Positions 25,059 through 29,055 of a stretch of DNA of 60,740 bases are shown here, in pieces (position 1 is the stretch's first letter; every line of letters starts with the position of its first letter). A program made the translations under genes and the position numbers. This stretch comes from Sulfurovum sp. (GTDB lineage Bacteria > Campylobacterota > Campylobacteria > Campylobacterales > Sulfurovaceae): positions 1 to 60,740 of the forward strand of contig JAUUDF010000016.1 of NCBI GenBank assembly GCA_030826885.1, read 5' to 3'. The notes under the pieces are model-generated. The model searched no databases. It saw only the letters and a list, made by a program, of their open reading frames with translations, and had not been told where the DNA came from.

Positions 25059-26068
25059 TGGAGCGTATGGTGGAGATAGAACGTTTTGAGGGGGAAGCCT
25101 CGTATGAAGTAACACTTCGCCCCAGCAATTGGGACGAATATATTGGGCAGGAGAAAATCAAGAAAAATCTTCGGGTATTCATTGAAGCGAGCAAACGCAG
25201 GGGTGAAGCGCTTGATCACATCCTTTTTTTCGGCCCTCCGGGGCTTGGTAAAACGACGCTGGCGAATATTATCGCTGCGGAGATGGGTGCCAATATCAAA
25301 ACAACTGCTGCACCTATGATTGAAAAAGCAGGGGACCTTGCCGCACTGTTGACCAATATCGAAGAGGGTGACATTCTTTTTATCGATGAGATACACAGAA
25401 TGTCTCCCGCGATCGAAGAGATTTTATACCCCGCGATGGAGGATTTCAGGCTTGACATCATTATCGGCAGCGGGCCGGCAGCACAAACGGTCAAGATAGA
25501 CCTGCCGCGCTTTACGCTCATCGGGGCGACGACACGGGCGGGAATGCTCTCCAATCCGCTTAGAGAGCGTTTTGGTATGCACTTTCGCATGCAGTTCTAT
25601 GATCCCCGGGAGTTGGCGAAAATTGTAGAGCAGGCGGCCATAAAACTGGAAAAGCCGGCACATACCGATGCAGCAGTCGAAATTGCCAGACGAAGCCGCG
25701 GGACACCGCGGATTGCCCTGCGTCTGCTCAAACGCGTGCGGGATTTTTCGGAAGTGGCCAACGAGGAGAAAGTGACGCTAGAGCGTGCCCGTTATGCCCT
25801 CGATGAACTTGGTGTCAACACGCTTGGGTTTGATGAGCAGGATATTCAGCTGTTGGAACTGCTTGTTGCTGCGAAGAACAGGCCGATGGGGCTGAGTACC
25901 ATCGCCGCGGCACTGAGTGAAGATGAAGGTACCATTGAGGATGTGCTCGAACCCTATCTCATTGCCAACGGATATATTGAACGTACGGCACGCGGACGCA
26001 TTGCGACACAAAAGAGTTATGAGCATTTCAAACTCGGCGGTTTGAACCAGGGGCTGTTTAATGACTAA
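25058..26068 (+). CDS. ruvB: Holliday junction branch migration helicase RuvB
   Basis: 336 residues, the usual size. AAA+ motifs: Walker [10 protein letters not shown] near residues 61-69, Walker [10 protein letters not shown] near 110, sensor 1 GATTRAGML, the Arg finger region PLRERFG, and a C-terminal winged helix ([15 protein letters not shown]). RuvB drives branch migration with RuvA in recombinational repair. It sits between panB and a permease gene, overlapping both by a few bases; ruvA and ruvC are not in the window. Confidence 0.97.
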
Positions 26069-27083
26069 AACACAGCTGATGATCACGGCGCTCTTTGTAC
26101 TCGGACTGATGGGAGCGTATAGTGTCTATCAGCCTTTTTTGCTCTCTTTGACCGTAGCGATCCTGCTTTCTATGGCGACATTCAACCTGACCAAACATCT
26201 GGTGGATTTTACAGGGTCGGCCAAGATCTCTGCAACCATTTCCACCCTGCTGTTGACCCTGCTGCTTTTTGCACCGATTGTCTATTTGGCGACGGTGGGG
26301 GTAGGTTACATCTCCCAGATCGACCAGCAGGGGGTGAAGGAGACGCTTGGCGCACTGCGGGCCCTGGTCGAGGAAGTGCCCTTTTTGAAAGATATGGCGC
26401 ACGAGTATATGAGTGATGTACGTATTGCCGAATATATCAGAGAATCGACGACCTATCTGACCGTGGCGGGCAGTACCGGTTTGGGCTTTATGAAAAACAT
26501 GCTCTTTGTGGTCTTTTTCTACTTTTTTATCAACTACTACGGAAACCGCTTTTTCGATACCATACTTGAACTGCTGCCTGTCTCTCCGAAAAAAGGGGAG
26601 AAGATGATGAAAGAGGTCTCCGCAACGATGGAGATCGTTTTCTACTCCATTATCGTCACGGCAATATTTGAAGGGTTCCTCTTTGGGGTGATGATGAGCT
26701 TTTTTGGCTTTAATGGGGTCTTTTTCGGGGTGATTTACGGATTTGCTTCCCTGATTCCTATCATTGGAGGTATGATTGTGTGGGCGCCGGTGGCACTTTA
26801 TGTCTGGACAAAAATAGATACCCAGACAGCCCTGATCATTGCTTCCTATTCGCTCATTGTCATCTCCGTCATCGCCGATACGTTCGTCAAACCGATGATC
26901 ATTGAAATTATCAAGAGGGATTTTCTCAAGAGTACGCTGCAGATCAACTCCATTTTGATCTTCTTTTCCATACTGGCAGGCATGAGTACCTACGGTTTCT
27001 GGGGAATGATCCTTGGACCGGCGATCACCTCTTTTTTGATTGCGATTACGAAGGTTTATCTGGACTATTCAGAGGTGAATTAA
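26061..27083 (+). CDS. AI-2E family transporter (UPF0118)
   Basis: 340 residues with seven to eight hydrophobic segments. Signatures include [14 protein letters not shown] at the start and a late block with [20 protein letters not shown] and [15 protein letters not shown], diagnostic of the AI-2E/PerM family. Family members export quorum-signal AI-2, act as Na+/H+ antiporters, or are uncharacterised, so substrate is open. ATG 26061 overlaps the end of ruvB by 8 nt. Confidence 0.87.
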
Positions 27084-27139
27084 TCCTTCATTAAAGTTCT
27101 TGATTTACAATATGAATACTACGAAAAAAAGGATAAGCC

Positions 27140-27820
27140 ATTATTAGAATACTCATTATAGAAGATGATCCGGAGCTGGCACTCATTCTGACGAATTATC
27201 TGACAAAACACGATATGGAAGTCATTGGCGCGGAAGATCCCTATATCGGGCTCTCTCTTCTGACACAGCACGACTTCGATCTGATCATTCTCGACCTCAC
27301 CCTTCCGGGGATGGATGGTCTGGAGGTGATTGAAAAAATAAGAGAGATTACCAACATCCCCATTATCATCTCTTCTGCCAGAGATGACATTACCGACAAG
27401 GTCATCGGGCTGGAGAGGGGAGCAGATGACTATATGCCAAAGCCGTATGACCCGCGTGAGCTGGTTACACGCATAAAGACAATTTTACGCCGCACACACA
27501 GTTCAGATGCCAAAAAGGAGAAAAAAGAGGAGATTTTTGTAGCGGATCCTTCTGCGAGAACGATTCTCTTTAAGGGGCATTTTCTTGACCTTACCGCTGC
27601 GGAGTACGATATCCTCTCCATGCTGCTGCAGCACAAGAACGGTTCGGTATCGCGTGAACAGCTGTTGTATGAGAGTGAGCATATCGATGATGACAGCTCC
27701 ATTAAGAATATCGATGTGATTATCTCGCGTATTCGTCAGAAGATCGCCAAGATCGATCCTGACCATGCCTATATCAAACCTATCCGCGGTGTCGGATATC
27801 TGTTGACAGACCGCGTATGA
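27140..27820 (+). CDS. ArsR-like OmpR-family response regulator with ATT start
   Basis: Receiver domain plus OmpR-type winged helix. The acidic pocket LIIEDD at the start, phospho-acceptor Asp52 (LIILDLTLPGMDG), SSARDD and KPYDPREL are typical, and the C-terminus ends IKPIRGVGYLL. The frame has a TAA at 27134-27136 and no ATG, GTG or TTG before ATG 27215, which would delete the acidic pocket. AAAGGA at 27128-27133 is correctly placed for ATT at 27140, so a rare ATT start is inferred. The protein resembles acid-response regulator ArsR of Helicobacter. It overlaps the kinase gene by 4 nt. Confidence 0.85.
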   Translation: MIRILIIEDDPELALILTNYLTKHDMEVIGAEDPYIGLSLLTQHDFDLIILDLTLPGMDGLEVIEKIREITNIPIIISSARDDITDKVIGLERGADDYMPKPYDPRELVTRIKTILRRTHSSDAKKEKKEEIFVADPSARTILFKGHFLDLTAAEYDILSMLLQHKNGSVSREQLLYESEHIDDDSSIKNIDVIISRIRQKIAKIDPDHAYIKPIRGVGYLLTDRV

Positions 27821-29055
27821 GAAACCTTTCTGTCACAACCTTTATCCATATTCTGTTTTCTGTTGCAATCGTTATTTTGCTTGCAACCTTCACTCTGTTC
27901 CACTACTGGAATAAAGACCGGCAGAAGATCGATGAATTTAAACGCTATCAGCTCATCTCCATTACATTTCTCTCCAACCTCAGGCTCTACCCGAGTCAGG
28001 AAGAGCTTGAAAAGCTCTATGAAGAGCTGCATGTCAAACCTATCCCTGAAAAAGAAACCAAAGCATTAGAAAAAAAGATCATGGAAAAAGGGGAGACGAT
28101 CTTTAGCGGTGGCTCAAGACAGCTTGGAAGAGTACGTGTATTTCGAGTAGATGGTCAGAACTACATTTATGTACAGCGTATGTCCTACAACCTGCTGCTC
28201 AAAGATGACGTTCCCAAAAACTTCTTTTTTGAAATTGCCGTTACGCTGGGGGTTGTACTGATAGCGCTGTTGCTGCTTATCTACTTTGCGGTACTGAAAA
28301 AACTCTATCCGCTGAAAAAGCTGCATCGCCAGATACAGCGTTTCGCACAGGGCGATATGAATGTAGAGATCACCTATGAGCATGATGACGAGATCGGTAA
28401 AATCGCCAAGAGTTTTGGGGATGCCATCAAACACATCAATCAGCTGAGTACCTCCAAAAACCTCTTTATGCGCAATCTGATGCATGAGCTTAAAACGCCC
28501 ATTACCAAAGGGCGCATTGTGGTGGAAATGTTGGATAACGAAGCAACCAAAAAGGTACTTATCCGCGCCTTTGAGCGGATGAACGAGCTCATTTCGGAAC
28601 TTGCAGAGATTGAACGGGTGACGACACAGAACTTTGAGCCCAATTTTGAATATGTCATGCTTTCGGATATTGTGAATGAAAGCAGGATGCTTCTTATGTC
28701 GGAAGGAAACTGCATAGATACAAGCGAGGTAAAGGAAAGAGGCCTTGCGACCGACAAAAAACTGATGGTTCTGGTATTGAAAAACCTGATGGACAACGGC
28801 ATGAAGTATGGCAAGGACAAATGTGTCAAGGTCCGCACAAGAGACAACATGCTTGAAGTCGTTTCAAAAGGAAAACCGCTTGAGCATCCGCTTTCATATT
28901 ACACCGAACCTTTCTCTCAGGCTGAAAAACGAAGTTCTGGATTTGGGCTTGGACTCTATATTGTAGACAGTATTTTGGAAAAAATCGGCTACAGACTCGG
29001 CTACAGGCATGAAGAGGGGATGAACATCTTTATGATTGTACCGGAAAAGCAGTAG
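27817..29055 (+). CDS. ArsS-like sensor histidine kinase
   Basis: 412 residues. Two membrane helices (about 10-30 and 138-165) enclose a periplasmic sensor of about 110 residues. A HAMP segment (LHRQIQRFAQGDMNV) follows, then the His box LMHELKTPITKG with His223, the N box LVLKNLMDNGMKYG and the G box SSGFGLGLYIV. The His-box sequence and gene order match the acid-sensing ArsRS pair of Helicobacter, though the stimulus here is unknown. ATG 27817 overlaps the regulator TGA (ATGA), so the two are made together. Confidence 0.92.
   Translation: MRNLSVTTFIHILFSVAIVILLATFTLFHYWNKDRQKIDEFKRYQLISITFLSNLRLYPSQEELEKLYEELHVKPIPEKETKALEKKIMEKGETIFSGGSRQLGRVRVFRVDGQNYIYVQRMSYNLLLKDDVPKNFFFEIAVTLGVVLIALLLLIYFAVLKKLYPLKKLHRQIQRFAQGDMNVEITYEHDDEIGKIAKSFGDAIKHINQLSTSKNLFMRNLMHELKTPITKGRIVVEMLDNEATKKVLIRAFERMNELISELAEIERVTTQNFEPNFEYVMLSDIVNESRMLLMSEGNCIDTSEVKERGLATDKKLMVLVLKNLMDNGMKYGKDKCVKVRTRDNMLEVVSKGKPLEHPLSYYTEPFSQAEKRSSGFGLGLYIVDSILEKIGYRLGYRHEEGMNIFMIVPEKQ

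Follow-up and report, generated by a model that had tools for sequence, protein, structure and literature searches.

The regulator gene and its immediate surroundings

The DNA analysed here, referred to as the window, is the whole of a 60,740-nucleotide stretch from Sulfurovum sp. It contains a gene for a response regulator, situated between a transporter gene and a sensor kinase gene on the same strand. The features relevant to its translation start are given below, where AUH denotes AUU, AUC or AUA.

26061-27083, + strand: upstream gene, AI-2E family transporter (Pfam PF01594, 127.6 bits; open reading frame list)
27128-27133, + strand: Shine-Dalgarno sequence AAAGGA, 6 nt before the ATT start (read from the sequence)
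27134-27136, + strand: in-frame TAA stop, two codons ahead of the start (read from the sequence)
27140-27142, + strand: ATT start codon of the response regulator (AUH kept in relatives)
27140-27820, + strand: OmpR/PhoB-type response regulator, 226 amino acids, ArsR/CprR-like (Pfam Response_reg 98.8 bits, Trans_reg_C 65.1 bits)
27215-27217, + strand: first in-frame ATG, a false start open to ORF callers (open reading frame list; receiver profile positions 1-23 lost)
27817-29055, + strand: ArsS-family sensor histidine kinase, the ATG of which overlaps the TGA of the regulator as ATGA (NCBIfam NF038389.1)

The regulator exhibits both modules of its type above cut-off, i.e., a receiver (PF00072) and a winged helix (PF00486). 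No NCBIfam equivalog for the regulator itself reaches its cut-off among the matches listed (25 of 96 families). The downstream kinase passes the NCBI ArsS-family equivalog model (417 bits, cut-off 250), and the description of the regulator as ArsR-like in an earlier note on this DNA is thus a fair one.

The transporter stop codon and the regulator start are separated by 56 nt in the window. The regulator frame reads TAA (27134-27136) GCC ATT (27140-27142) ATT AGA ATA CTC ATT ATA GAA GAT GAT, which from position 27140 encodes IIRILIIEDD. The TAA lies in frame, so initiation further upstream is excluded, and no ATG, GTG or TTG occurs in this frame of the window between the TAA and the acidic pocket of the receiver, in agreement with the earlier note. 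The gene therefore presents a start other than AUG, GUG or UUG, in frame, with a Shine-Dalgarno sequence and without a canonical alternative. Folding of the leader (27100-27180) was no better than that of shuffled sequences (z 0.91); a scan for promoters and terminators gave nothing on the + strand, and its total did not exceed that obtained from shuffles.

Conservation of the start codon among relatives

At E <= 1e-70, the regulator gene was found in 71 of the 78 genomes of the genus, of which 70 were read, leaving out the G031 match (68% identity) and two extra partial matches in G071. The start codon is ATT in 41 genomes, ATC in 19 and ATG in 10, such that AUH accounts for 60 of the 70; the earlier claim of a non-canonical start at ATT 27140 is borne out by this distribution. 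Comparison of the start region in relatives, proposed in the earlier note as a check, gave a similar picture. Among the window and its 80 best relatives (81 rows), the aligned codon is ATT in 38, ATC in 14, ATA in 6 (58 AUH rows) and ATG in 12, and the remaining 11 rows contain a different codon at the aligned site, followed by an ATG one codon on. After pooling, 100 non-redundant loci were obtained (75 AUH, 14 ATG and 11 other).

Beyond the genus, 198 genomes were drawn from the order; 156 of them gave matches (E <= 1e-60), and 79 loci were read from these. AUH occurs in 7 of the 14 loci from other genera of the window's own family, in all 17 genomes examined of a second family (f7, which we suspect to be the Sulfurimonadaceae), in the single loci of families f21 and f10, and in one of six loci of f5. 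Nine other families show ATG, GTG, TTG or a shifted start in all of their 40 loci. In two further genera of the window's family (g2 and g3; L229-L231 and L233-L235), the regulator possesses an ATG 3-5 codons upstream of the usual start, and a second ATG one codon after the usual start is present in some of these regulators and absent in others.

A tree was built from 97 regulator proteins with a short search, and several of its rows have long branches. A branch with full SH-aLRT support sets apart a group that contains every one of the 34 AUH rows as well as AUG rows from families f1 and f5. This grouping indicates that AUH belongs to one orthologous group, apparently with one or a few gains and several losses, the fewest changes needed on the tree being eight.

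An error of sequencing or assembly, or a pseudogene, might be considered, given that the assembly of the window is incomplete (89% complete, 57 contigs). AUH is nevertheless found in 75 of the 100 distinct loci, including four single-contig genomes (ATT in G001, G002 and G036, ATC in G004), and the regulator frame is open throughout in the window. An error is refuted by the relatives, and we assign this explanation practically no probability. Since the AUH codon is kept in most relatives of several families, the comparison identifies it as a lasting biological feature rather than a sequencing error.

The position of the start is supported by its upstream context. In all 75 distinct AUH loci, an AGGA motif ends either 6 nt (53 loci) or 7 nt (22 loci) before codon 1, and in the window the AAAGGA which the earlier note had matched to ATT 27140 is placed accordingly. 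In the pooled set, AGGA is located 5-8 nt upstream in every one of the 95 distinct AUH loci versus 21 of 50 AUG loci (Fisher P 2.5e-17, a statistic that ignores relatedness). AUH and AUG loci show no difference in the pairing energy of the Shine-Dalgarno sequence (P 0.50); a stronger Shine-Dalgarno interaction in the AUH loci was therefore rejected, and only the strict AGGA motif and its position distinguish the two.

Downstream of codon 1, the mean entropy of codons 2-25 is 0.33, 0.11 and 1.13 at positions 1, 2 and 3, and that of the region from -40 to -17 is 1.75, i.e., nearly random. By this measure codons 2-25 evolve like coding sequence, with variation chiefly in third positions. This bears on the possibility that translation in fact begins at the ATG at 27215, the first ordinary in-frame start codon, and that the codons upstream of it are untranslated. 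A protein begun there matches the receiver profile only from position 24, with the first 23 of 111 positions gone, and would lose the acidic pocket; the preceding codons are conserved as protein, and the first canonical codon is an ATG at that position in only 23 of the 75 AUH loci. We regard a start at 27215 as very improbable.

Even less credible is initiation at an upstream ATG (27112) with slippage on a run of seven A residues (27124-27130) into the regulator frame. Both elements exist in the window, but the TAA of the regulator frame at 27134 comes after the A run, which rules out a frameshift from the upstream open reading frame, and a small ATG-started frame ending at the regulator start is found in only 12 of the 75 AUH loci.

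A canonical in-frame codon upstream is absent in 67 of the 75 AUH loci. Codon 2 varies (ATN, ACN or GTN) whereas codon 1 retains AT, which marks codon 1 as the start, and we conclude that translation of the regulator almost certainly begins at ATT 27140.

Selection on the third base and other AUH genes

The third base of codon 1 has undergone 23 changes on the tree, nine of them between G and non-G. The 24 fourfold-degenerate columns of the regulator exhibit 21-42 changes, 1-25 of which involve G, so that codon 1 lies inside this range, toward its low end. The usual selection for AUG is thus absent, and by the same comparison with the 24 columns there is no signal of selection against AUG in the regulator. 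These counts are what would be expected if the third base were neutral, with a fixed Shine-Dalgarno sequence, or ribosomes that come in from the gene upstream, rendering initiation insensitive to it and AUH arising by drift.

The upstream genes provide some support for such neutrality. In f7, f21 and some members of the window's family, a gene for an htrA/Do-type-like protease ends 10-20 nt before the regulator start, and in f5 an htrA-type gene ends 8-24 nt before it; across f5, f7 and f21 (8-24 nt) this geometry permits re-initiation. C-terminal fragments of the upstream gene (one row each from f7, f21 and f9) all had TIGR02037, the Do family, as their best model, with scores that, coming from fragments, are below the full-length cut-off. 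The position of the regulator close behind an htrA/Do-type protease gene was seen in other families (L236-L261, e.g., L242), and in the genus an AI-2E transporter is mostly found there (match in 60 of the 75 AUH loci). The start of this transporter gene varied too much to be usable as a control: of 59 loci with the start position inside the locus, 37 have ATG and the rest are mixed, probably owing to misaligned N-termini.

Three observations oppose a neutral third base. The gap in the genus is often 50-90 nt, behind a different upstream gene, and AUH is still kept; the start of the neighbouring kinase is steady (ATG in 75 of 75 AUH loci); and a second AUH gene, described below, never has G in its 60 loci. 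We consider neutrality of the third base rather unlikely.

The extent of AUH initiation was surveyed in 489 non-overlapping reciprocal best genes, using 800 kb from each of two single-contig genomes of the genus. For 46 of these genes the first canonical codon lies late in the alignment of both genomes; on reading, nearly all have ordinary starts, with the alignment running on upstream. AUH with a Shine-Dalgarno sequence at a conserved boundary was found in both genomes for just two genes, the regulator and a DUF234 protein, which argues that initiation is not generally loosened. A second scan under other rules returned eight candidates, of which the regulator and a guanylate-kinase-like row have AUH in both genomes without an adjacent ATG; in the latter row we read the AUH as an internal Ile codon. 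Since the second scan missed the DUF234 gene, neither of the two can be taken as complete.

The DUF234 gene lies outside the window (G000:C20:10047-10931, L389; PF03008, 61 bits). From the 74 genus genomes with a match, 60 loci were examined (L372-L431), and every one has AUH (ATC 32, ATT 17 and ATA 11), with no AUG. Its third base shows 15 changes and is never G, and each of the 38 fourfold-degenerate columns there holds some G; this pattern suggests selection against AUG in the DUF234 gene. In two other genera of the family (L432-L437), all six loci have AUH at the aligned codon, and L437 has an ATG one codon upstream.

The earlier note had named infC as the known ATT case, which is correct for E. 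coli and Streptomyces, where the start is AUU or AUC (PMC5472188), but does not extend to this genus: infC begins with TTG in all 30 genomes read (L112 and L153-L181, of 64 with a match), one alignment beginning at residue 9 and its TTG being read by eye. The classic AUU autocontrol codon is absent from infC here. A changed initiator tRNA is unsupported: of the three tRNAs with a CAU anticodon, one carries (as read by eye) the features of an initiator, C1.A72 and GGG/CCC in the anticodon stem, and its CAU anticodon is the ordinary one.

Proposed role of the start codon and comparison with known systems

We consider it probable that the regulator is translated from a long-kept AUU, AUC or AUA start and that this weak codon holds the regulator and its kinase low. 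Initiator tRNA would pair with the first two bases of the codon, and the conserved AGGA 6-7 nt upstream would hold the 30S subunit in place. The mismatch at the third base would make initiation inefficient and possibly subject to rejection by IF3, as work in E. coli and Streptomyces suggests.

The kinase may then follow the regulator. Its ATG overlaps the regulator stop as ATGA in 55 of the 75 AUH loci, and its mean Shine-Dalgarno pairing is -0.55 kcal/mol, versus -5.78 kcal/mol for the regulator (-0.06 in the 55 overlapping pairs and -1.88 in the other 20). With this overlap and almost no Shine-Dalgarno sequence, translation of the kinase should depend on ribosomes finishing the regulator. 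On balance, we lean toward a single weak codon that keeps the amounts of both proteins low and tied to each other. Ribosomes that re-initiate after translating the upstream gene may contribute as well, most probably in the operons where that gene is of the htrA type.

The AUH start probably signifies translation that is low and sensitive to IF3; the earlier reading of a rare and probably weak start is partly supported, and right in kind. More tentatively, Sulfurovum and its related families may possess a limited group of AUH genes of ancient origin, so far the regulator-kinase operon and DUF234, with starts under selection for weakness, so that the level of an envelope-stress two-component system would follow the supply of IF3 or the state of growth. 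IF3 would then act on this set without the classic AUU autocontrol, infC being outside the AUH class.

The start is of interest for the depth of its conservation and because a second gene of this kind is present. Known genes with AUU, AUC or AUA starts are few, and gene-calling programs generally expect ATG, GTG or TTG; they may thus truncate the regulator (at 27215 here; in f7 at an ATG located six codons into the frame) and leave database entries with a damaged phosphorylation pocket. A two-component regulator with AUH across at least two families would constitute a natural test of the purpose of such starts, because AUG lineages exist beside AUH lineages. Titles and abstract beginnings in the open-licence literature contained no report of an AUH start for this regulator in Sulfurovum, Sulfurimonas or Campylobacter.

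The start of E. coli pcnB is also AUU and limits the level of its protein, an enzyme unrelated to the regulator and belonging to no two-component system. Comparable systems are ArsRS of H. pylori and CprRS of C. jejuni, which likewise combine a regulator with an ArsS-family kinase and resemble several of the families studied here in the htrA-type gene directly upstream (including the f9 row L276). They differ in the start: the relatives examined in f9 and f12, families we recall as holding Campylobacter and Helicobacter, begin with ATG. Both H. pylori ArsR and C. jejuni CprR are reported to be essential (PMC6083042 and PMC7887314, respectively), and it is from these papers that a role in acid or envelope stress is taken. 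The hp0166EMSA_3' primer in the primer table of PMC6083042, when reversed, reads GAAGGAG and then TTAATTG, hinting at a TTG start of H. pylori arsR.

The infC gene of E. coli and Streptomyces shares with the regulator a conserved start of the AUH class, which in those bacteria is IF3-sensitive (PMC5472188). There IF3 controls its own gene, whereas in Sulfurovum infC has TTG and the AUH codon is found on a two-component regulator. The closest tested precedent is sigR of Streptomyces, also a stress regulator with a conserved non-canonical start and a partner gene behind it. As described in the same paper, its GTC start (32 of 34 across the genus, with two GTT) is repressed by IF3 and helps to set the ratio to the partner, the two genes being incompletely coupled in translation; by the account given there, evidence for such a start in other genera is lacking (PMC5472188). 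Unlike sigR, which has GTC rather than AUH and forms a sigma/anti-sigma pair, the regulator retains its AUH start across at least two families, and its repression by IF3 would be by analogy.
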